Positions 8,661 through 23,399 of a stretch of 32,507 nucleotides of DNA are shown in pieces. The DNA lies in the IMG/VR virus record IMGVR_UViG_3300044987_001487, positions 1 to 32,507 of that record, one strand, 5' to 3'. The DNA comes from a virus. The first letter of the stretch is position 1, and every line of letters begins with the position of its first letter. The notes under the pieces were generated by a model. It made no database searches. It saw nothing but the letters and a program-made list of their open reading frames with translations, and was not told the DNA's origin. The position numbers and the translations under genes are program-made.

Positions 8661-8966
8661 TTATTCAATTATTGTTTCTTTTTGTTCAGGTATTGTTTCT
8701 TTTTGTTCAGGTATTGTTTCTTCGTTCTCTTTTATATATACTTTTTTGTATATGTTTAAGAAATCATACTTAATAATTTCATCAATTGCTCGTTCAATTT
8801 CTTCTAGATTTTCATCTTCGGTAAATTGATTGGATGTTCTAGCAATTCGACCTAAGTATGCACTAGAGTTATAACCTTTTTCTACATCAAACAAAAACCA
8901 AAGAGAAAACTCTCTAAATGGGTTATAAGGATTATCAAACGTTGTAATCATACACGCATTATTCAT
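8661..8966 (-). CDS. Small acidic phage protein with C-terminal heptad tandem repeat
   Basis: This 101-residue protein has no function I recognise. The N-terminal part (MNNACMITTFDNPYNPF, SLWFLFDVEKGYNSSAYLGRIARTS, IERAIDEIIKYDFL) resembles a short family that I recall next to this kind of RNAP-like gene. The tail is a direct repeat of seven residues (PEQKETI) encoded by a 21-nt tandem repeat at about 8664-8710. The start codon overlaps the stop of the RNAP-like gene (TAATG), so the two are translationally coupled. A GGGGG RBS lies inside the upstream gene's end. Confidence 0.65.
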   Translation of the reverse strand: MNNACMITTFDNPYNPFREFSLWFLFDVEKGYNSSAYLGRIARTSNQFTEDENLEEIERAIDEIIKYDFLNIYKKVYIKENEETIPEQKETIPEQKETIIE

Positions 8967-11710
8967 TAGATAGTTTCCCCCTTTCCATTTAGATATCTAG
9001 AGATTGTTGATGTTGATACGCCAAGTGCTTTTGCAATGTCAGAAGTAGCATGACCAGAAGCATTCATTGCTGCCGCTTTGTTTAGTTTAGCAGTACTTAA
9101 CATAGTTGTTGCACGTGGAGTAGCTCTTTGTCTAAGAATGTCCATATCAGCATTGTTTATAATTTGATTAAGCCTATTCTCACTAATGGCACCAGCTTGT
9201 ATGGCTTCCCATTCTTTATCGGTCACTTTAATTTGTGTTTTTTTAGCACCTATAGCAAGTCTTGCTGCGGTTAGATGTTGTTGTTTTACTTTCTTAATTT
9301 CGCTTGATGTCATGTCAGGATTCTCTTGTTTCTTTGCTTTTACAACGGCATTAGCTAAGATTTGAGCTTTCCTTTCTTTCGGTGCATTTAGTTCAGCAAT
9401 GCGAAGTTGAGCTTCTAACGATTTAACCTCTTCTTTGTATACTTCTTTAGCTCCTGATGAGTATGCTATCTTTCCAGTATAAACCATCTCTTTTCTAGAT
9501 TGATTAGCCAAAGCTTTCATCTTGTTAGCGAAGTTTGCGTATGCTTCCTCCTGGGGGGTACCAGATGATAGGTCCATGGCATCCTTAGCCTCCGCCATCT
9601 TAGTACTCTTCTGAGTTCGTATTTGTATTTTTCCATCTTTACCAATAAACTCTTGACGTACTGAAGTCCAAAGTAAAGTTCCCTCTGGTAGGTTTGGATC
9701 ATACCAATCTTTCCCTACTTGATTTATTTTAGGACTTCCTCTTCTTTTAAGTACCGGTGTCTCAGATTTAGATTTAGATATTAGAGTAGCAGATCCCTCA
9801 TGATACCTTCCATTTATATCGACACTTCCTTGATAATACTTTTTTAAAGCTGCTATACCATTGTCTTCTTCACTCTTCTTGTAATTCAATTTATGTTTGG
9901 CTGCGTCAATAACAACCATACTATGTTTAACTGCTCTAGCCAGTTCATCATTGTTGGCTCCCTTTAAAGTCATATCAGTAATTAGATTAGATATTTTACC
10001 CATCTCTAATTGAGTATTATCGACCTCTTTACCTTTTTTACTTATGTGTTTCATCAGGGTGACGGTACTTTCATCATAAGATCCTGGTCCATACTTGTCT
10101 TTTGCATTAAATCCTTCAAGACCTCTTAATGATGGTGTAGATTTAATTTTAACTCTATCATTAACTGGTATGGTCATTACTGTATCCCCATCGAAATCTG
10201 CGCCAGATAATCTCTCGGCGATTTTACTATTTATACCAACAGCGTCTGATGGTGAATTACCTAGGACCCTTTTAGAATCAGCATGTTTATTATTAACCGT
10301 TAATATGGGAATTTCAAACGTACCACCATGAGGATATCTAATAAGTGCTATTTTCTCCCCATTGTTATAGTTAGGAGCGTATACCTCATTATCTTTTAAT
10401 GATGGTACTGGTAATATTACATGATATTTCTGTCTTGGTAATGCGGCAGCCTGTAGATGTACTGCGGCAGCATCACAATCATCTGAGAAAGATCGTAATA
10501 ATGCTTTCTTTATCGTCGGATTATTAAGGGAGTTTATCTCGTCGAACTCTGCTTGTTTATCCGTTATAGCTAGGTTAAGTTGTTTATTTATTAGATGCAT
10601 GTTTTGTTTAGAAAGAAATTGAGCTGGAAGCGAATTACTCCACTCTTGCCAGTCACCTTCTTCTCTAGCTTTATTAACTAAACCTAATTGTTTATTACCA
10701 TCTTTATCAGTATAATAATTTTGTCCACCCGCTTTGATTAAGGATCCAAATGGATTATCCGGATCATCTTTTATATTTTTCAGAACATCGCCCATTGGAG
10801 TCCCACTTTTTTTATTCGTGTTAAATAATACATCTACTCCGTCTGGAAGGTTATCCGAATATACGGCCATGCCTTTTATATATTTTTTATCATCAACCAT
10901 GATTCGAACCTGAGCATAATGTGAATTTCCTAAAGATAAATCATCAACACCTCTTCTAATCTCGACAACTCCATCTTTATGAATTCCACCTTCTTCAGCA
11001 TATCTAATCTTAATACGACTGGAATCTAAACTCTTAGGATATGTAAATCTATCAAAGGTCGCACCGTCATCGTGAGAGGTGTAATCATTTATATAATTAA
11101 TATTCTTATAGTCATATATTGCCTTGTGTTCGGTTCCTGGAGGACAAAGAAATTTACCATTAGTTTGTTTTCCCGGACCAGTAGGAATTCCTCCACCATA
11201 TTCTAAATACCCTTGAGTCTTTAAAATTTCTATTGCTTGTTTCATTTTTTCTGGAGATATTTTTAATTCTCTTTCAATTCCTCTACCGACATCAATTATA
11301 CCCTTTTCATCAACCTGTTGTTTTAAGAAATCAGCAGTTTTCTGAGCCATGTTCATACGCTTTGCAGCATTCTCATTAAGTAGAGATCTGATTGATGAAT
11401 CGTTTGAATATCCCATTTCGGTAGCAATGGCTTTTAGACTATATCCTTTTTCCTTAAGTTGTAAAATTCTATTACGTTCAGATGTCCTTCTTTCGGCATT
11501 AGCTAAGGATCTTTGTGTTCTATATTCTGTTGTGGTCATGTTTAGGGATTTTGCTATTTCTGTATCGCCAAGACCTTGTTTCTTAAGACCATCAACACGA
11601 CTAAGAAAATCACCACTATGTTGATGTGGATCCTCACCAGAACCTTTAGGATATCGACCAGAAGTTGCAGTACCTATGTGCATTAAAATTTCTTCAGCGA
11701 TAGGATTCAT
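8966..11710 (-). CDS. RNA-polymerase-like protein (DFDGD active site) with terminal HTH segments
   Basis: This 914-residue protein carries GADFDGDTVMTIP with D505, D507 and D509, the Mg-binding signature of the double-psi beta-barrel catalytic subunit of multisubunit RNA polymerases and of single-chain relatives such as SPbeta YonO. Upstream IALIRYPHGGTFEIPILTV mirrors the RAPTLHR...P region of beta prime, and downstream AVKHSMVVIDAAKHKLNYKK offers conserved-looking lysines. The N-terminal part has H11-I-G and SGRYPKGSG (17-25), two HTH-like segments (about 38-70 and 80-113) and a winged-helix-like part (125-175). A last HTH (ASGHATSDIAKALGVSTSTI) lies near the C terminus. This suggests a polymerase with its own promoter recognition. 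RBS TTGGAGGAG precedes the ATG. Polymerase activity is inferred from the motif, not proven. Confidence 0.7.
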   Translation of the reverse strand: MNPIAEEILMHIGTATSGRYPKGSGEDPHQHSGDFLSRVDGLKKQGLGDTEIAKSLNMTTTEYRTQRSLANAERRTSERNRILQLKEKGYSLKAIATEMGYSNDSSIRSLLNENAAKRMNMAQKTADFLKQQVDEKGIIDVGRGIERELKISPEKMKQAIEILKTQGYLEYGGGIPTGPGKQTNGKFLCPPGTEHKAIYDYKNINYINDYTSHDDGATFDRFTYPKSLDSSRIKIRYAEEGGIHKDGVVEIRRGVDDLSLGNSHYAQVRIMVDDKKYIKGMAVYSDNLPDGVDVLFNTNKKSGTPMGDVLKNIKDDPDNPFGSLIKAGGQNYYTDKDGNKQLGLVNKAREEGDWQEWSNSLPAQFLSKQNMHLINKQLNLAITDKQAEFDEINSLNNPTIKKALLRSFSDDCDAAAVHLQAAALPRQKYHVILPVPSLKDNEVYAPNYNNGEKIALIRYPHGGTFEIPILTVNNKHADSKRVLGNSPSDAVGINSKIAERLSGADFDGDTVMTIPVNDRVKIKSTPSLRGLEGFNAKDKYGPGSYDESTVTLMKHISKKGKEVDNTQLEMGKISNLITDMTLKGANNDELARAVKHSMVVIDAAKHKLNYKKSEEDNGIAALKKYYQGSVDINGRYHEGSATLISKSKSETPVLKRRGSPKINQVGKDWYDPNLPEGTLLWTSVRQEFIGKDGKIQIRTQKSTKMAEAKDAMDLSSGTPQEEAYANFANKMKALANQSRKEMVYTGKIAYSSGAKEVYKEEVKSLEAQLRIAELNAPKERKAQILANAVVKAKKQENPDMTSSEIKKVKQQHLTAARLAIGAKKTQIKVTDKEWEAIQAGAISENRLNQIINNADMDILRQRATPRATTMLSTAKLNKAAAMNASGHATSDIAKALGVSTSTISRYLNGKGETI

Positions 11711-11712
11711 AA

Positions 11713-12270
11713 TTAATTCTCCTCCAATTTAATTTTATTAATTATCTTATCAAAGGTTATGATCTTATCCATTATGGGGTTAATTTCCTCAAATGTTGGT
11801 TTTGCACATAATACTTCATCTGATTGATATAGTCGTAATTCAATTTCTATATCTACTGGTTTGACTTTATACTCTAGACAGAAAAGAGCAGTATATATTT
11901 CGAGTTGCTCCATATGAGCTGGAGTGACTCCTGATTTATAGTCATGAATTCTCAGACATCCATTTCTAAAAGAAATAGCATCTGCTGTTCCAAAACAATT
12001 ATCCGAATAGAAAAGAACTTGTTCTGGCTTCATTTTAAAACCAATAGAGTCGTTTACATATAAATTTAAAGTTTTATGTGACTTTGGTAATTTTTGTCCG
12101 AGTCTTATACATTGGGCTGCAAATTCGTGTAGTTCAGTTCCTTTTTGAATTGCTAGGAATTTAGAATATACATCTGCAACTTTTTCTTCACTATAGTTAA
12201 TCCAATGATATTTACTTGCTCCCAAAAAAGCATGCAGTCCCTCAAAAGTTGAATGTTTGTTGAAGATCAT
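11713..12270 (-). CDS. PD-(D/E)XK nuclease, RecB/Cas4-like
   Basis: This 185-residue protein has the nuclease core: KGTELHEFAAQC (H48), FGTADAIS (D97), then LRIHDYKSG (D110 and K112), with HMEQLEIYTALF (Q122) as motif IV. This order is typical of RecB-family/Cas4-like exonucleases that process DNA ends. RBS AAGGAGG lies 8 nt before the ATG at 12270. The gene overlaps the VRR-NUC gene by 29 nt. No Cys cluster for an iron-sulphur site is seen. A role in recombination or concatemer processing is likely, but the substrate is unknown. Confidence 0.75.
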   Translation of the reverse strand: MIFNKHSTFEGLHAFLGASKYHWINYSEEKVADVYSKFLAIQKGTELHEFAAQCIRLGQKLPKSHKTLNLYVNDSIGFKMKPEQVLFYSDNCFGTADAISFRNGCLRIHDYKSGVTPAHMEQLEIYTALFCLEYKVKPVDIEIELRLYQSDEVLCAKPTFEEINPIMDKIITFDKIINKIKLEEN

Positions 12271-12526
12271 TTAGTACGGCCTCCTTATTCTCTGGATATA
12301 TAAATCTTGAAAAAGACATCTTATCCATCACATCAACATAATGATCCTGATTAGGACGATGACTTGAACTTGCTGATTTTTTACCTTCTAATGAAGCCCA
12401 TTTATTTTTATAAAGAATTATCAAATCTGGAGCACCTTGAAAATCATTATTATGTACGACCATACACCCAGGAAATAATTCTCGTATTTCTTTTATTAGT
12501 TTTGTTTTAAACTTATTTTCTAACAT
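12242..12526 (-). CDS. VRR-NUC domain nuclease
   Basis: This 94-residue protein is the size of stand-alone phage VRR-NUC domains, which belong to the PD-(D/E)XK superfamily. Motifs: E13, QGAPDLIIL (G31, P33, D34), then ASLEGKKS (E47-x-K49) and NQDHYVDVM (Q60). RBS GAAAGGAG precedes the ATG at 12526. It is the first gene after promoter-like motif 12589-12613 and starts a tight operon: VRR-NUC, RecB-like nuclease, RNAP-like protein, small acidic protein. These domains often cut Holliday junctions or flap DNA; this one's substrate is not known. Confidence 0.8.
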   Translation of the reverse strand: MLENKFKTKLIKEIRELFPGCMVVHNNDFQGAPDLIILYKNKWASLEGKKSASSSHRPNQDHYVDVMDKMSFSRFIYPENKEAVLNDLQQTFNF

Positions 12527-12587
12527 ACTACACTCCTTTCTAAGCTATAACAAAATCAGAAGAGAATGGGAGTTTTATCCTTTCTCT

Positions 12588-12809
12588 TCATAACAGGGAA
12601 TGTTTTTTTCGCGCGCCATAGTTTTTAATTCTATATTTACAATCAACACATTCATATTGTAAATATTGAGTATCCGTATCACCACCAACTAATCCGTGAC
12701 AACATCCCATACTTGCTTCGCCTTTATATTCCATCTCCGAATAACATCCATCTTGCGACCATCCCTTACAAACATTTTTAATAAATTTTTTAATATTTTT
12801 AAACATCAT
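12588..12809 (-). CDS. Small Cys-rich (putative zinc-binding) protein
   Basis: The start is taken at the first of two adjacent ATGs (12809/12806) after GAGAGG; the open frame upstream runs through the repeat region and is not credible. The 73-residue protein is basic at the N terminus (FKNIKKFIKNVCKG) and has Cys pairs DGC, MGCCHG and YECVDCKYRIKNYG, a plausible zinc-ribbon-like arrangement. Its last residues are encoded by promoter motif copy 9. No function is recognised. Confidence 0.55.
   Translation of the reverse strand: MMFKNIKKFIKNVCKGWSQDGCYSEMEYKGEASMGCCHGLVGGDTDTQYLQYECVDCKYRIKNYGARKKHSLL
12589..12613 (-). promoter_or_regulatory. Promoter-like motif copy 9, ahead of the nuclease/RNAP-like operon
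   Basis: Read on the minus strand: CGCGAAA, AAA, ACA, TTCCC, TGTTATG. It matches the other eight copies without gaps, with one change in the TATTAT hexamer. It lies 63 nt before the VRR-NUC start and overlaps the last codons and stop of the Cys-rich gene. The leader then runs to the GAAAGGAG of 12526. Confidence 0.7.
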
Positions 12810-12864
12810 CAACAACCTCTCATAACTATATTTTTGTGTAAATTTTACTGGAAATTTCTGTAAA

Positions 12865-13154
12865 ACCCACTTGCCCACTTTTTTTCGCTTATTATATATA
12901 TTATATATATTTTTTCTCACATTAAATAAGAGAAAAAAGTGGGAAAGTGGGCACAAAACCCGCAAACCCGCACGAACACTGCGTTTGACCGCGCCCACTT
13001 TTGTTTTTAAAAGTGGGCAGAAAGTGGGCAAGTGGGCAAAAAAGTGGGCAAAAAAGAGAAGAAAATGCACTTTTTATGTCCGTACACCCTCTCCAAAAAT
13101 CTCACGCCCAAATAAAAGTGGGCAAAAGCCCAGTTTTCAAAATAAAAGTGGGCA
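12865..13154. repeat. AAAGTGGGCA iteron cluster with AT-rich tract; candidate replication origin
   Basis: Exact AAAGTGGGCA on the plus strand lies at 12944, 13010, 13021, 13041, 13115 and 13145, and on the minus strand at 12872-12881. One-base variants lie at 12936, 13029 and (minus) 12992-13001, plus a weaker copy near 12865 on the minus strand. A pure A/T tract (about 12888-12916) sits beside the first copies. Iterons in both orientations next to an AT-rich tract, in a gene-free stretch near the replication genes, are a classical origin layout. The segment 12810-13213 holds no gene I can support. Confidence 0.6.
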
Positions 13155-13213
13155 GAAATTTTACCCATTTTCAAACCTTGTATGTACGTATTTTGTTAAT
13201 ATTTTTCATTTTA

Positions 13214-13831
13214 TTAACTCATAATATCATCAAATACGACCGGAATTAGTTTTTTAAACATACTCAACATGGGTATTGTTATCTCTCTCATTTGTGGATG
13301 TGCTCCTATTGCTGTCCTTAATTTAAAGAAATGACGCCATTCTCTCAAATTCATCGTAACTACAATTTCGGTTTTGAGACTGGTTGGTAATACTGACCGA
13401 GCCATTTGAGGCGTTGATCCAGACTCTAACATTGCAAAATAACATTTCTCAGCTACTGTACAAGAATCATGCCAGTAGTAATATTGTTGTGAACTTAAAC
13501 CAAAGGGTGTAATTACGGTTATCTCATTATTAAATCTGTCATGACTATAATTACAATATCTAGTACTTTCCTGAGCATAAGAAGCAACCCTATGTCTAAC
13601 GAGTTCATGACTTACTCCTCGATCACAAATAATTTTTACTGTTATATTATAATGTTCTATCATAGCTTCGTGACCACATTCTATTAATTTTTTTACAAAT
13701 TGTACGGACGAATCATCGGTTATCTTATCGTATGATTTATAACAAGTACGCCCAACAAATTCTATAGTTTTTAAAACTTCTATACCATCAACATTTGATA
13801 GTATTTCAAAACTCGGTTCTATTATTTTCAT
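13214..13831 (-). CDS. thyX: Flavin-dependent thymidylate synthase
   Basis: This 205-residue protein carries the ThyX signature RHRx7SxR exactly (R79-H80-R81, then S89 and R91, in RHRVASYAQESTR). It converts dUMP to dTMP with methylenetetrahydrofolate, FAD and NADPH in the cytoplasm. Other family features are EHYNITVKI before the motif, LPTSLKTEIVVTMNLREWRHFFKLR and a C-terminal HPQMREI. The RBS is modest (AAAGGAA, 10 nt from ATG). A palindrome and a nine-codon open frame lie in its leader. It supplies thymidine nucleotides for phage DNA synthesis. Confidence 0.95.
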   Translation of the reverse strand: MKIIEPSFEILSNVDGIEVLKTIEFVGRTCYKSYDKITDDSSVQFVKKLIECGHEAMIEHYNITVKIICDRGVSHELVRHRVASYAQESTRYCNYSHDRFNNEITVITPFGLSSQQYYYWHDSCTVAEKCYFAMLESGSTPQMARSVLPTSLKTEIVVTMNLREWRHFFKLRTAIGAHPQMREITIPMLSMFKKLIPVVFDDIMS

Positions 13832-13900: not shown

Positions 13901-15139
13901 TTAAATTTTTCTAGCCCATCTTTCGTCGTATTCCTCTCTAGATATCTCTACCCAACGAGGCGTACCTTTAGATTCTTTAAAGAACTTATTAATTTCTATT
14001 TTTTCATCTACAAGGTCTTCCGTTGGCTTCATAATATAAAGAATACCCATCGTGTCAAAGTCTCCATTTTTTCTATCGGTCAAACATTCTTCACAATATA
14101 CTTTAATGGGTTTACCGGGCATATAAGGCATAGTAATAGGAAACATCTCATTTATAATATTACCAATAAATCCATTATGATATGTACTTTTAGTGTGGGC
14201 ATCAACACAATAATAACTATCAACATCTCTGTATTTGACCGTTCCGTCCGCATAAACATATTTAAATAGAGAACCCATTCTTCTACATTGATAGCTAACT
14301 TCTTCGCCTCTCAATCCGCTTCTGTCTAAAATATCACTCCATACATCTTCAGTATCATCTATTGGAGTTAATGGCTTATCCTCAATTAATCGAACTAATA
14401 TATTCTTAGTAAGACCAATACTAAATCCACTATGACCATCTTTGGTGAGACTATTAAACGCCCTTAAAGCACTTTCATAGCACGCACAACCATAATCCCA
14501 CTTTTTACCAGTAGGATCACCATTACCAGCCCTCTCACTCTTACAAGCTATCTTAATTTCTCTCTCTGCCCAAGACAACATATTACTTTTTTTTCGAAAA
14601 ATAACGAAGAGTTTAAAGAAATCAATAGTGCCTTTTATAACACCTTTAATAAAATCAAATATGTTGTGTAGCCCTCTCCTAACCTTGTGATGTGTAATAG
14701 TCTCGATGGATTCTGGGTCGTAACATATTTTATGTTCGCAGTTTGGTGCTTCTTCTGGAATGTTTCCTTCATAAAGTATACCCCATAACGACATAATTCT
14801 AGTTACATCCTCTTCGGTATGTCCATCCCATTCAGGAGCAACATCTAACTCATGACATTTAAATAAATCCCAATATTTATTTTCGTAATGATAAGTGTAA
14901 GTTCCTTCTGGGGTATCAATTCCAACTATAAACCAACCCCCACCAAAACACTCCTCACCTTCAGAATGCTTGTGGGATTTCCAAGCCAAGTCTTTAAAGG
15001 TGTTACACAAAGTAGCAAACAAAATACATCTCTGATAATATAAACTATCAAATGTGTGATATCCATCACTGACCTTTCCAATATCACCGATCTCCTCCAA
15101 TGAAATTCCATACTTAAGACACATTTCTTTAATATCCAT
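13901..15139 (-). CDS. Phage protein of unknown function
   Basis: The start is set at ATG 15139 (MDIKEMCLKYG), which has GAAAGGGG 9 nt upstream; an in-frame codon six positions earlier overlaps that RBS. The protein has 412 residues. The N-terminal part (VSDGYHTFDSLYYQRCILFA, ECFGGGWFIVGIDTPEGTYTYHYENKYWDLF, WDGHTEEDV) matches a domain I recall from many Firmicutes phages, with no known role. The second half is Cys-containing (YGCACYESA, SYQCRRMGSLF, YCEECLTDRKNGDFD) and looks like a separate domain. A short basic hydrophobic segment near residues 160-180 joins them. No catalytic motif is recognised. Confidence 0.7.
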   Translation of the reverse strand: MDIKEMCLKYGISLEEIGDIGKVSDGYHTFDSLYYQRCILFATLCNTFKDLAWKSHKHSEGEECFGGGWFIVGIDTPEGTYTYHYENKYWDLFKCHELDVAPEWDGHTEEDVTRIMSLWGILYEGNIPEEAPNCEHKICYDPESIETITHHKVRRGLHNIFDFIKGVIKGTIDFFKLFVIFRKKSNMLSWAEREIKIACKSERAGNGDPTGKKWDYGCACYESALRAFNSLTKDGHSGFSIGLTKNILVRLIEDKPLTPIDDTEDVWSDILDRSGLRGEEVSYQCRRMGSLFKYVYADGTVKYRDVDSYYCVDAHTKSTYHNGFIGNIINEMFPITMPYMPGKPIKVYCEECLTDRKNGDFDTMGILYIMKPTEDLVDEKIEINKFFKESKGTPRWVEISREEYDERWARKI

Positions 15140-15196
15140 AATATTTTCCCCTTTCAATTTTTATTTATTTTTTTAAACTAATATAATTTCGAATTA

Positions 15197-16884: not shown

Positions 16885-18108
16885 TTACCATTTTACGTAA
16901 ACATTTTCATTAAAACTTCGTTTATCTTTAAGCGCTTGACTGATTGCCAAATCAATTCCTGATCGAGATTTTAGATGGTAGTAATATAAATCGGTGTAAG
17001 GGGTATTGAGTCTATCGATCCTACCAGCAGATTGCACCATAACCTTGTACGAATAATTTTGTGAATAAAATACGATGGTATCCGTCTCAATACAATTCCA
17101 ACCCTCAGCCCCAGCAGTATATTGTACCAAATATACCCACTTATCACTATCTGGTATTAACTCATGCTTATGACCATTCCATTCGGCAATTTTTACATCC
17201 AATTCATAACCAAGGTTTCTGAGAATGTGTAATTCGTAATCGAAATTGTAAAACACAATTACCTTTGGATGTTTCTCGCAGATTTCAAGAATTGCTACTT
17301 GTCTAGTTTCGTCGGTATTTACTATTTTACGCCAAACATAACAAAGCCCAGCAGCATTAATAATGGGTTCGTTCTTAAATGGATCCCAGCGATGTCTAGA
17401 AGCATCCTTATATTTTTCAATACTATATTTTACATAAATGTTCTCGTGGTGAGAAACGGTCTCACGAGTGAAATCCATATTTATAAGAATTGAACCTCTA
17501 AGTCTAAGTAACTTACCAGTTCCTATAAATCGATCAATCTTTGGAAATTTACAAAGTCTATTGTATACGGCATGTTCTTGTAGGAATTCAGTTCTATTTT
17601 TATAAAAACCATTTGCTACAAAAACTGGAATATAGTCTTGCCAAGTATCTCCTGGAGTTGCCGATAATAAAATCCACTTGTTTTTTCTAGCAATATTTAA
17701 AAATGCTTTTACCCATGTCCCAGACCCTATTACTCGCTGCTCATCAAATATAAAGAACGCACCATGAACTTTAGAATACTTTTTAATATTATTCCACGAG
17801 TCGATTATAACATTGTTCTTATATAGATTAAATTTAGGGTCTGGAGAAAGGAGAAATGGAATTAATTCCTTCTCCCATTCCAAAGTGTCTCGTTTTCTAG
17901 CGGTTGTAATAATATAAAGATCTCTAGGTGGATCGCCCATAGGAATATACTCATGACCTATTAACGATTGTGGATCACCATCTTCCTGAAGATAATAATA
18001 AGAGATAGCGGTTCTTGATTTTCCGGAACCAACGCCACCACAAAGAATACACCCATTCTTCATCTGACCGATAGCTTTTTGTTGATAGTCTCGTAAATTT
18101 ATTGACAT
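16885..18108 (-). CDS. SF2 (SNF2/DEAD-like) helicase
   Basis: This 407-residue protein has the SF2 motifs in order: Q-like LRDYQQKAI, motif I GGVGSGKS (K30), motif Ia IITTARKR, motif II IFDEQR (D122-E123), motif III LLSATP (149-152), a second domain with VIVFYNFDYEL, motif V QYTAGAEGWNC and motif VI QSAGRIDR. DEQR replaces the usual DEAH/DEAD. Phage helicases of this type remodel DNA forks or displace proteins. It starts 3 nt after the DUF5662-like gene. The RBS is weak, so coupling to the upstream gene is likely. Confidence 0.85.
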   Translation of the reverse strand: MSINLRDYQQKAIGQMKNGCILCGGVGSGKSRTAISYYYLQEDGDPQSLIGHEYIPMGDPPRDLYIITTARKRDTLEWEKELIPFLLSPDPKFNLYKNNVIIDSWNNIKKYSKVHGAFFIFDEQRVIGSGTWVKAFLNIARKNKWILLSATPGDTWQDYIPVFVANGFYKNRTEFLQEHAVYNRLCKFPKIDRFIGTGKLLRLRGSILINMDFTRETVSHHENIYVKYSIEKYKDASRHRWDPFKNEPIINAAGLCYVWRKIVNTDETRQVAILEICEKHPKVIVFYNFDYELHILRNLGYELDVKIAEWNGHKHELIPDSDKWVYLVQYTAGAEGWNCIETDTIVFYSQNYSYKVMVQSAGRIDRLNTPYTDLYYYHLKSRSGIDLAISQALKDKRSFNENVYVKW

Positions 18109-19328: not shown

Positions 19329-22300
19329 TTAAAATGGGAATATACCATTATTGTCAATGTCATAAGAATCTTCAGATGTAAACCATTCAACGTCACCATG
19401 CTGATTTAAAGCTTTTACAGCGTCATTCACCATATGATCGTAATATGTTCTATCCACATCTGTTTCTTTACCTAATTCCTTGACCATTTCAGATTCAAGC
19501 CACCGATATCCTTTTGATCCCGTAGCCGCTGCATAACTTTTTTCTCCTGTTTTGGTATTGGTTGTTTCTCTAAGGAGAATTCCACCACCACAACCTGGTT
19601 TTACCGGACAAAATCGACCGACCTTTCCTACAAATTTGTAATTATGACCTTGTTGTATTTGCTCATCAAGCCCATCTGCACTCATTGGAGGATCTTTCTT
19701 AGCAAGACGATCTCGTGTCTTTTCTAGTTCAGACACATCGGGAAGACTTTCGTTCATATCCAAATATAAAGAACTAGTTACAGATTTTGTCTCACACACA
19801 TCCTCAAATTCTATAGATTCTCCACTAAACAACTTCTTAAATACATAAGGAACTGCAAATTGAGTACCTGTAGCTGTCCATTCACCAGAATGTTTCTTGT
19901 TATCCCCCGGACAATATCCGTATAATGATTCGCATTTTTCTTTTGAAGCATACTTAGCAATATATACGGCATCATTAACTAAACACATTTTATCGTACGT
20001 AGCCTCGTGTTCGAAGTCGTATCCATATTGTTTACCATAATCCATGACAAACTGAATAATTTTAGGATCTGCATCTGGAATCTTAATAGAATCTGTCTTA
20101 ATGTGTGCTACGATATAACCTCTCGCCTTTACTTCATGTTTGAGATTTATCATAAATAATGCTCCACGCTTTGCAACTATGTTGTCTTTGTTTCGAGAAT
20201 CGTTAAATGCGTTTTCAAAACTTGCAGATGTAAGACCGTATACTGAATTTATAGCCGTTTTTAATGCGTTAGCTAAATCTTTAGATGTCATCTCACCATC
20301 AACAACCTTCTGAATATATTTGTTAAGTTTACCGTTTAGCATATTTTTTACTTTATCCCATTTTTCATGTTTTACTGCTATTCTTGCATCAACTATTTCT
20401 TTAAATTTAGCAGTATACACCGGACCAAACAACTCCTCAGCAATAACACTACTTGGATGCATTGATACAACGTCTAATAAAGCCACGTTTCCATGCATTC
20501 CGGGAACAGAATGTACATAACCACCCTCACCAACGTTTTCACCTCGATATGTTGATTTACCATTTTCATATTTATAACTAGGAAACACTGGTCGACCATG
20601 GTCATCGAATAACGAATATTCATCTCCAAAATTATCAAACACCCAATTATCTTCAGTTATTACAATTTTATTAACTTTATCTGGAATTAATCCCATGTTT
20701 CTGTAATTAAACTGACTTTGTGGTTTTTTGTTATCTCCAAAGATGATTTTAGTTGTGAGTGTATTAGTTGTGTCATTTACTGTAAGCCCAGCAATATCTG
20801 CTAATATTTGTCTTGCAGTCCAGTCACCGGTCAAGTAATCAAATACTGCTTCAGTTGCAATAACGTCATTGTCACAATATTCTGCAACCTTTGTCCATAA
20901 TTCTTTAGATACGGGCTGATCCCAAGGGAGACCTAATTCTTGATGGCGAAGTCCTAGTTCAATTTCAAACTTTTTTAGACCTTTCTTATTACCAGCAGAT
21001 GCAAAATCATAGACGTCCGTATACGATATGTTATATGCTTCGCCAAAGAATCCATTTGAACTCCCAGAAACGATTTTCTGAGATAATTCGTATAGCTGTT
21101 CATTAGAATATCCTATCATGCGGGCATACAATATATGATTATCATATCGTCTACAATTAAATCCAATTAATTTGAATTTTAGAAGCTCCTCAATTTCTGA
21201 TGGTTTTGGGTTGATCATTCTTACAACCGGTTTGTCTATACCCTTAATTTTCCAACAACAAATAAATAGATTTTGAAATATTTCAATATCGTAGAACACC
21301 AACACTGCCTCTTTGTTTTCTATATTAATAGATTGGTCGTCTGATTTAAACTTCATCTTACTTACAAATTTGAGACAATAATCGGCCTGATGTGAACTAC
21401 TAGCAGCAAAGGCTATTACAGCATTTCGCATATCAGTGACATCGTAATGTATTCCTTGGTTATAAGCATCTTCTAATATCTTATATATAAAATCGATGCT
21501 AGGTTTTGTTGCTGGGTGAATTTCTTTATTAAGATTTCTCTTAATAATAGTTCTTATTCTTTTTTCAGTATTAATCGATTCAAAATTTACCATTTTCTTT
21601 TCTCCTTTCAACGGTAAACCAGAACTAATGGTGGCTATTGGTACGTCGTTACACTTTGATAATTTCCTTCTTAATGAACTTTTACCAACAAACACCTTAA
21701 TCTCAATATAATCATCAAATACACAACTTAATTCGGTTGGGTCACCAGTATAAATATAATGAAGATGTATACCGTTTCCGCTCTTACTAAGTTCTGCATA
21801 GGTTAGAGGCCACTTACTTGCCTCTTCTATATTTCGCTCAAGTGATTTATTACCATTATCATCTTGAATATCAAAATCGATGACAATATGATTAAGTGGT
21901 GGTTTAACATAATGAATTTTAGAAGTATCCAACTGAGATAAAATTGTTTTTGTATTATCCCACTTCTCAGAAGGAATTTCTTTTGATGAGGCATATTGTG
22001 CTGGACAATCCGCACACGCCTTATCGAATATAGATTTAGTATTCTTAAAAGTAATTAATGATGGTTTTATAATTTCTTCTTTTTTTATGAATGTAGGATC
22101 TTCAAACTTATCAGTCCTAAATCCACTGTAATAACTACGAAACCTTGAACCATCATCAGAATTAAAACGTTCCTTATATTCCCGAAAGTAGTTTTTAAGT
22201 TCTTCTTTAAAGATTCTTTGAGAGAACGGAAACGTTACCTTAGCCTCATCACAATACGTTTTGTACATCTCCCAAGCAGCTTTCATCGTTGTGCCGTCTT

Positions 22301-23399
22301 CCGTCTTAAATACATAGTAAGAATCAATGACGAAATTATAAAAGTCATTAGAAGCACCAAGCATTGTAAGTGGAACATAATCGTCGTATTTACTCGGGTT
22401 TTTTAAATATAATTCTTGACAATGATACGCTATGGCACCAAGCTCAAAAATAACCCGCTTTACGATAGTTTTATACTCGGCTGTATCCAACTTATTACCA
22501 GATGGAGAAACGTCTATTAATCTCCTAATAAGACCCGACTTAGCATCGGTTATCTTTACTGGTTTATTGGTACCCATAAATAGAAAGCATTTAAATTGGT
22601 TTGCGTAGGTCGACTTAAATTTCTCATTAACTGTCATAAGCTCGTGAGAAACCAAACTATTTAATCTAGTATTATCCTCAATTTTTGACAAATCACCATC
22701 GTGTTGAATAGCTACGAGAGGATTACTCTTGAACGCTTCCAAAGCAAACGAATTACTAGAAGAACCAAGAGCTTTTGCATCAAATACTGAGTAATACCCT
22801 TCAAATAAATGCTGGATGATATTTAACACGGTAGATTTACCAGTTCCAGCAGCACCATAAAGAACCATAAATTTTTGTAATTTCTTTGATTCGCCAGATA
22901 CAATAGAACCAATCGCCCATTCAATTTTATGACGCTCTTCCTCAGTGTACAGAATAGACATCAATTTATCATAAGCCGACATGTCACCAGGTTCAAGTGG
23001 ATACGTAAGTTTTTTACTGGCATAATCCTTTTTGTTTGTGTTGGTGTTGCTAAATATGAGTTTATCATCCAGCATGTGAAAGGAATCTCTCATCTGTTTT
23101 TGACAATATTTATGCCAAGCATCAATCATCCCAGACCCAGCATCCCACATATGCAAAATCTTAATATCTGAATCGTATTTATGACGATTTTCCTCTGCAA
23201 ATTTTTCGAGTTCCCTATCAATTAATTGTAGGGCGTCTTGTTCGTCCGTAGACCATAAACCTCGTTCCTCGATCCAAATAGCATAGAAGTCGCCACCACG
23301 AATCATAAGATCGGAGCTTTTTTTAATGATGAACTTCGGGTAGATTTCTATTACACCACGCTTTGAACTACGTGTTGAAACTACTAAAAAGTCTATCAT
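19329..23399 (-). CDS. SF3 helicase - archaeo-eukaryotic primase - family B DNA polymerase fusion
   Basis: One 1356-residue open frame with three replication enzymes. SF3 helicase: Walker A GAAGTGKST (182-190), Walker B-like VAIQHDGD (D234, D236), GTNKP (N278) and IRR near 291. Primase (AEP): IDFD (D508, D510), SGNGIHLHY (S540-H545), then YIEIKVF. Polymerase: exonuclease motifs YDIE (D704, E706), YDN (D753) and YCDND (Y841, D845); palm motif A LDVVSMHPS (D976), motif B KTAINSVYG (K1047-G1055) and motif C KTDS (D1103). Motif C has Lys where family B usually has Asp (DTDS). RBS GAGGAG precedes the ATG at 23399. An internal RBS and ATG give a possible polymerase-only product from residue 603. 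It probably carries the main fork activities in one chain. Confidence 0.9.
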   Translation of the reverse strand: MIDFLVVSTRSSKRGVIEIYPKFIIKKSSDLMIRGGDFYAIWIEERGLWSTDEQDALQLIDRELEKFAEENRHKYDSDIKILHMWDAGSGMIDAWHKYCQKQMRDSFHMLDDKLIFSNTNTNKKDYASKKLTYPLEPGDMSAYDKLMSILYTEEERHKIEWAIGSIVSGESKKLQKFMVLYGAAGTGKSTVLNIIQHLFEGYYSVFDAKALGSSSNSFALEAFKSNPLVAIQHDGDLSKIEDNTRLNSLVSHELMTVNEKFKSTYANQFKCFLFMGTNKPVKITDAKSGLIRRLIDVSPSGNKLDTAEYKTIVKRVIFELGAIAYHCQELYLKNPSKYDDYVPLTMLGASNDFYNFVIDSYYVFKTEDGTTMKAAWEMYKTYCDEAKVTFPFSQRIFKEELKNYFREYKERFNSDDGSRFRSYYSGFRTDKFEDPTFIKKEEIIKPSLITFKNTKSIFDKACADCPAQYASSKEIPSEKWDNTKTILSQLDTSKIHYVKPPLNHIVIDFDIQDDNGNKSLERNIEEASKWPLTYAELSKSGNGIHLHYIYTGDPTELSCVFDDYIEIKVFVGKSSLRRKLSKCNDVPIATISSGLPLKGEKKMVNFESINTEKRIRTIIKRNLNKEIHPATKPSIDFIYKILEDAYNQGIHYDVTDMRNAVIAFAASSSHQADYCLKFVSKMKFKSDDQSINIENKEAVLVFYDIEIFQNLFICCWKIKGIDKPVVRMINPKPSEIEELLKFKLIGFNCRRYDNHILYARMIGYSNEQLYELSQKIVSGSSNGFFGEAYNISYTDVYDFASAGNKKGLKKFEIELGLRHQELGLPWDQPVSKELWTKVAEYCDNDVIATEAVFDYLTGDWTARQILADIAGLTVNDTTNTLTTKIIFGDNKKPQSQFNYRNMGLIPDKVNKIVITEDNWVFDNFGDEYSLFDDHGRPVFPSYKYENGKSTYRGENVGEGGYVHSVPGMHGNVALLDVVSMHPSSVIAEELFGPVYTAKFKEIVDARIAVKHEKWDKVKNMLNGKLNKYIQKVVDGEMTSKDLANALKTAINSVYGLTSASFENAFNDSRNKDNIVAKRGALFMINLKHEVKARGYIVAHIKTDSIKIPDADPKIIQFVMDYGKQYGYDFEHEATYDKMCLVNDAVYIAKYASKEKCESLYGYCPGDNKKHSGEWTATGTQFAVPYVFKKLFSGESIEFEDVCETKSVTSSLYLDMNESLPDVSELEKTRDRLAKKDPPMSADGLDEQIQQGHNYKFVGKVGRFCPVKPGCGGGILLRETTNTKTGEKSYAAATGSKGYRWLESEMVKELGKETDVDRTYYDHMVNDAVKALNQHGDVEWFTSEDSYDIDNNGIFPF
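21593..21609 (-). promoter_or_regulatory. Internal RBS and start codon inside the replication fusion gene
   Basis: GAAAGGAG (21602-21609) lies 8 nt before an in-frame ATG (21593, M603), the same quality of initiation signal as the phage's separate genes. Initiation here would give a 754-residue polymerase with its exonuclease and without helicase and primase motifs. The amino acids it encodes in the long frame (LKGEKKM) are ordinary, so chance from an AG-rich Lys/Gly stretch cannot be excluded. Confidence 0.5.

Follow-up and report, generated by a model that had tools for sequence, protein, structure and literature searches.

Proteins that combine an SF3 helicase with a winged helix form a class of replication initiators binding iterons beside A/T-rich DNA. 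Phage P4 replicates autonomously by means of a P4-type initiator helicase acting on its cognate ori; this protein, alpha, contains a primase domain and no polymerase, and its iteron word differs from that of the element described below. According to PMC7581432, the iterons of SaPI origins are recognised by the C-terminal domain of Rep and, in Cch2 of SCCmec, a protein related to SaPI5 Rep, the C-terminal domain binds direct repeats in vitro, while unwinding needs AAGTG; the Cch2 repeat, TACCACTTAAT, is AAGTGGT when read on the opposite strand. The origins of E. coli PICIs always contain an A/T-rich region with a set of iterons on each side (PMC6092414, where P4 alpha and ori are also mentioned). 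Phage-encoded resistance (PER) has been described for streptococcal and lactococcal phages, e.g. with the 302-bp ori region of Sfi21 (PMC6356513).

The element studied here lies in a virus record of 32,507 bases, from a phage of a gut bacterium, which was analysed over its whole length and is called the window in the following. All likely genes are on the minus strand, in the order helicase-polymerase, SF2 helicase, a protein with WDGH and Tad3 matches, ThyX, the repeat region, a small ORF, endonuclease, exonuclease, RNAP, and terminase with portal (table 1). The locus resembles the SaPI and PICI systems in having short iterons and an SF3/D5-type helicase, with a predicted winged helix where those systems have a C-terminal dsDNA-binding domain, and also in the two iteron sets placed around an A/T-rich region (12866-12953 in the window, and likewise in relatives), but it belongs to a tailed phage, whose complete-looking relatives are 50-75 kb long, and its helicase has a family B polymerase, not a primase, as fusion partner. 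Furthermore, the SaPI and Cch2 origins are found directly downstream of the helicase gene, whereas here the element is about 6.3 kb downstream, with other genes between. P4 offers the likeness of a P4-type initiator helicase with a cognate ori site, but alpha has its primase N-terminal to the helicase, while the phage protein shows no primase family match there and has the polymerase on the C-terminal side. Cch2 is likewise a D5-family helicase, and its AAGTG (AAGTGGT) repeats are nearly the same word as the AAGTGGGC of the window; however, in the available part of PMC7581432 the Cch2 iterons number only three, each of 5 nt, within the 23 bp that immediately follow cch2, and no paired iterons around an A/T core are described.

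Table 1. Genes and repeat-region features of the window, with coordinates, strand and remarks.
Feature	Coordinates	Strand	Remarks
Helicase-polymerase, 1,356 aa, proposed reader/initiator	19329..23399	-	SF3 (P4/D5-type) helicase fused to family B DNA polymerase
Winged helix after SF3 domain, proposed iteron-binding domain	22119..22295	-	Residues 369-427, recognition helix 394-404; AlphaFold model
SF2-type helicase gene, replication module	16885..18108	-	Upstream of element in relatives
Protein with WDGH and Tad3 matches	13901..15157	-	
ThyX	13214..13831	-	
Two outlying iterons	13115..13154	+	13115-13124, 13145-13154
Dense distal iterons	12992..13050	+	Inverted near-copy 12992-13001 (-); direct copies 13010, 13021, 13029, 13041
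Short AACCC..GCGGGTTTGCGGG-type block, between core and distal iterons	12955..12982	-	Kept in many relatives
Iteron pair, opposite side of core	12936..12953	+	AAAGTGGGAAAGTGGGCA
A/T-rich core, 56 bp, candidate DNA-unwinding element	12881..12936	-	GYGATAAAAA-type motif and TATATA block kept in relatives
Iteron pair, one side of A/T core	12866..12881	-	CCCACTTGCCCACTTT on + strand
Small ORF	12588..12806	-	
VRR-Nuc-type endonuclease	12242..12526	-	First gene of operon 8966..12526 downstream of element
Cas4-like exonuclease	11713..12270	-	Same operon as VRR-Nuc-type endonuclease
YonO-like RNAP	8966..11710	-	Same operon as Cas4-like exonuclease

The word AAGTGGGC occurs nine times within 282 bp (12873-13153) and nowhere else in the window, and this multiplicity compares with a maximum for any 8-mer of five in 2,000 Markov shuffles of the repeat region and, per 400 bp, of three in the rest of the window. 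Its longer form, AAAGTGGGCA, is found in seven exact copies (starting at 12872 on the minus strand and at 12944, 13010, 13021, 13041, 13115 and 13145 on the plus strand), which together with three copies bearing one mismatch are all confined to 12872-13154; shuffles of the whole window contained on average 1.9 such copies (at most one mismatch) and never reached ten. Along the gene strand, outlying iterons are followed by a dense cluster with an inverted copy, by an AACCC..GGGTTTGCGGG-type block and, then, by two iteron pairs that enclose 56 bp of A/T-rich sequence, the second pair being inverted. The spacing within the pairs is 8 bp, and the tract between the two inverted pairs (12886-12935) is 86% A/T. 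The region as a whole is a non-coding gap between the small ORF, starting at 12806, and an ORF ending at 13214, the open frames running through it being artefacts of the repeats. The description of the repeats given by the sequence-only reading, namely an iteron cluster in both orientations beside an A/T tract, in a gene-free stretch where any open frame is repetitive, is confirmed. The GC skew that it had suggested as a check gives no support to an origin, since the sign is unchanged at the element and the step seen on the gene strand, from about 0.155 upstream to 0.10 downstream, is opposite to that of a simple bidirectional origin.

Other features of the surroundings were noticed. A recurring motif, GTCCGTAC/GTACGGAC or TTCGGACGA, stands amid the iterons of many relatives (e.g. 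L013, L042 and L301) and at about 13079-13085 of the window, and a second conserved non-coding block, GCGAAAAAAACATGCCCTTTTATGAAGAGAG-like, precedes the endonuclease gene (12575-12620, minus strand) and is present in many relatives, such as FP_oengus (L371:19085-19130), L037, L077 and L286; it is possibly a leader RNA or regulatory site. The WDGH-domain protein matches Tad3, an inhibitor of type I Thoeris, and may be an anti-defence gene beside ThyX.

Conservation was assessed in relatives fetched from viral contigs by protein homology to the RNAP and the exonuclease only, of which 69 distinct loci with enough upstream DNA were left after removal of near-identical ones, with RNAPs about 57-69% identical to that of the window. 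At least three AAGTGGGC per 400 bp were found in the 5 kb before the exonuclease in 55 of the 69, while seven control 8-mers held to the same clustering upstream of the exonuclease gave none. These are the unbiased figures, the alignments A1 and A2 having been selected by exact iterons, so that their iteron columns are invariant for that reason. A core model (R1), built from sequence only, matched 29 of 30 phage records picked mainly for length, in essentially one place each, the extra matches being neighbouring or opposite-strand matches of the same palindromic site plus a weak one; such a single place counts against a dispersed operator, which would recur elsewhere. The spacing also varies little, the outer iterons being 64-65 bp apart across the core in 53 of 61 sequences, which corresponds to 56-57 bp between the inner ones. 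The Arthrobacter phages Caterpillar and Nightmare, whose hosts belong to another phylum, carry AAGTGGGC and TGGCCA (the element of Caterpillar being at about 52.26-52.60 kb), and the Faecalibacterium phage FP_oengus has TGGCCA and CCCACTT at the element; FP_oengus was the sole convincing match when the whole core was compared by BLAST with named phages, and nothing convincing was found among plasmids. Loss of the repeats in close relatives, which the sequence-only reading had named as counting against an origin, is thus not what is seen: they are preserved in the same position across widely diverged sequences, an actinobacterial phage among them, and the proposal of a candidate origin gains support. 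No description of the element was found in the openly accessible papers searched, and the matches listed in a text search for the sequence words look unrelated. In an unrelated phage with a Head-tail_con protein (L173:6800-7400), a similar word (GGCCCACTT/AAGTGGGCC) is repeated 16-20 times immediately next to a Prim-Pol/PriCT_2/AAA_25 primase-helicase gene.

Most of the loci in which the AAGTGGGC cluster is missing have another repeat, related or different, at the same place and with a similar core: AAGTGGCCA in L131, TTTGGCCA in L138 and L110, AAGTGTCCA in L071, ACTGGTACA in L083, TTTGGTACA in L146 and TTACACACA in L142, the loci L084, L139, L076 and L127 being less clear. The word is AAGTGGACA in L537, from a set fetched by the polymerase, TTTGCCAG in Siphovirus contig89 and ATCTGCCAAA in Gordonia phage Petito, while in ReqiPepy6, SheRa and 1706 the iterons at that place are different or not clearly recognisable. 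Wherever the word has changed, all copies of the element are altered together, including the direct, unpaired ones, as is general for initiator-iteron pairs. Such a concerted change at constant place and layout points to a phage-encoded, coevolving reader and, since the same word is found in phages of Clostridia and Arthrobacter while phages of similar origin have different words, the reader would be carried by the phage rather than supplied by the host.

The sequence-only reading had seen no initiator with an iteron-binding domain; that statement no longer stands, as the helicase-polymerase is a candidate, with a D5/SaPI-type SF3 domain and a predicted winged helix. The protein matches phrog_4210 (E 0), DUF5906 and, at residues 164-390, TIGR01613 (primase_Cterm; E 5e-15, below its curated cut-off), and gp072 of ReqiPepy6 is likewise annotated as an SF3-type helicase with a family B polymerase. 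No primase family match was found N-terminal of the SF3 domain, which starts near residue 110-164 and is followed by the polymerase. In an AlphaFold model covering residues 1-450, built from 31 aligned homologues (with a mean pLDDT of 77 and a pTM of 0.64), the SF3 domain is followed by the winged helix. Among solved structures, the model is best matched by the SaPI5 primase-helicase (Z 18.9, with an rmsd of 7.5 for 369 residues), the match covering the winged helix; next come poxvirus D5/E5, AsfvPrimPol, NrS-1, papilloma E1 and AAV Rep; the sequence profile also matches SaPI5 (7ola, E 9e-5) over residues 166-423, winged helix included. The winged helix of the helicase-polymerase is proposed as the iteron-binding domain.

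Coevolution of winged helix and word looked promising in a first comparison, in which L454, with the word ACTGGTACA, showed an unusually diverged SF3 part (ratio 0.95 versus 1.05-1.23 in others), but the pattern is broken by L548, L451, L455 and Caterpillar. The residues do not sort by word: both QKR and the usual SQR are found among phages with AAGTGGCCA, while PRH goes with AAGTGGGCA in Caterpillar. MraZ was also considered as the reader and rejected: no match was found in 4 of 10 element-bearing genomes and a sub-threshold one in G001 (these MAGs may be incomplete), and the repeats of the MraZ box (AAAGTGG) are spaced by about 10 bp, as opposed to the 8-bp pairs found here.

Taken together, the layout, the word and the class of protein fit a rep-ori module, and the element is probably the replication origin of the phage, of the SaPI/PICI/P4 type, with the SF3 helicase-polymerase as reader of the iterons. 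Copies of this protein would bind, by the winged helix that follows the helicase domain, to the AAGTGGGC iterons flanking the A/T core, form rings and melt the core; they would then be loaded as replicative helicase, with extension by the family B polymerase of the same protein, so that replication would start at the element.

Of the other explanations, the one that fares best, though still unlikely, is that the core is a sigma-A promoter of the endonuclease-exonuclease-RNAP operon and the iterons are operators of a phage regulator, replication starting elsewhere. The best promoter-like match of the region does fall in the core (12920-12891, minus strand), at least 9 of 12 consensus positions being matched in 53% of 62 cores on the gene strand versus 29% of shuffles and 18% on the antisense strand, and in relatives the element is upstream of the same operon, genes of which are near it in 111-120 of 150 distinct clusters. 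On the other hand, it lies anywhere between about 0.7 and 4.3 kb from the exonuclease, with other genes intervening, it is essentially single in each genome, nine or more sites flanking the core exceed the needs of an operator, and at least two copies in bacterial chromosomes point away from any gene start. Promoters inside origins are common, so that origin and promoter may both hold, and the core of the proposed origin may also act as a promoter.

The chromosomal copies deserve separate consideration. When bacterial genomes were scanned for the double iteron, 79 stretches were obtained, part of which are expected by chance; those with clusters of at least four are almost all from Clostridia, and many are prophages of this phage family. 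Other copies lie between host genes, such as pcrA and PGA_cap (L271), spoIIE (L334), lysS (L282), methionine gamma-lyase (L332), formate-THF ligase (L299) and polA (L306). Solo copies between housekeeping genes were noticed in these six loci, in L311 and L333, and in genomes G001-G006, several being at contig ends, as is usual for multi-copy repeats; in L391:36-140, L325 and L332 both arms have iterons with AAGTGGTC, which comes close to the AAGTGGT of Cch2, in place of AAGTGGGC. Counted with the core model, the copies number six in G001, four in G003, two in G002 and three in each of G004, G005 and G006. The genes on an 18.7-kb stretch around a copy on contig 33 of G002 are mostly of host type, and those tested include none for phage replication or structure. 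In these draft genomes, the RNAP was not found in G001-G004 and G006, and of the six, G001 and G005 yielded a full helicase-polymerase, whereas G002, G003, G004 and G006 did not. Pairs of copies often share the element only (e.g. L394 and L395, 96% identical over 95 bp); those on contig 269 of G001 and contig 62 of G006 have 1.2 kb of flank in common, so that the site looks orthologous.

It might be argued that the element is a non-autonomous, MITE- or REP-like mobile repeat of Clostridia captured by a phage ancestor, its function in the phage being incidental, since genomes without the RNAP gene contain two to six intergenic copies and the similarity between copies often stops near the element edges. 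This is very unlikely in view of the single place kept across the phage family, actinobacterial phages included, and of the concerted word changes, as a passive insert would be lost; moreover, when 60 genomes around G006 were searched, nine had a match, several of them already in the set, and 51 were without a copy. The solo copies might instead be remnants or, as an improbable conjecture, decoys titrating or misdirecting the initiator of infecting phages, a natural chromosomal form of PER, the pressure of which would then drive the change of the iteron word in the phages. PER offers a possible parallel in that a non-coding phage origin fragment acts outside the phage, but its action is described as copy-number dependent.

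That the region encodes a structured RNA, with the inverted repeats as stems, is hard to believe: many GCCCACTT...AAGTGGGC pairs can form hairpins, and in a variant from chromosomes both arms show GACCACTT...AAGTGGTC, but RNAalifold found compensatory change in none of eight pairs (a result weakened by the choice of alignments by exact iterons), unpaired direct copies change along with paired ones, and Rfam has no match in the window. The YonO-like RNAP, the gene of which adjoins the element, has an HTH region towards either end, HTH_38 at 77-102 and one of resolvase type at about 880-910, both strongly conserved in relatives. A transcript of T7 RNAP primes replication at the T7 origin; that the YonO-like RNAP similarly reads the origin or promoter through its two HTH regions and primes replication is equally far-fetched, since both are nearly unchanged where the word has changed (L131, L083, L071 and L076), which argues against a reader of the variable part, although the RNAP could still read the constant core.

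The proposed origin, together with the helicase-polymerase, provides a candidate origin and a candidate initiator for a large and little-studied family of tailed phages, characterized by a YonO-like RNAP and a helicase-polymerase fusion, which includes the Faecalibacterium phage FP_oengus and phages of Arthrobacter and Gordonia. The natural word changes on a constant core are a ready-made test of how an initiator changes its DNA specificity, and the chromosomal copies raise the question of whether hosts keep phage origins as a defence.
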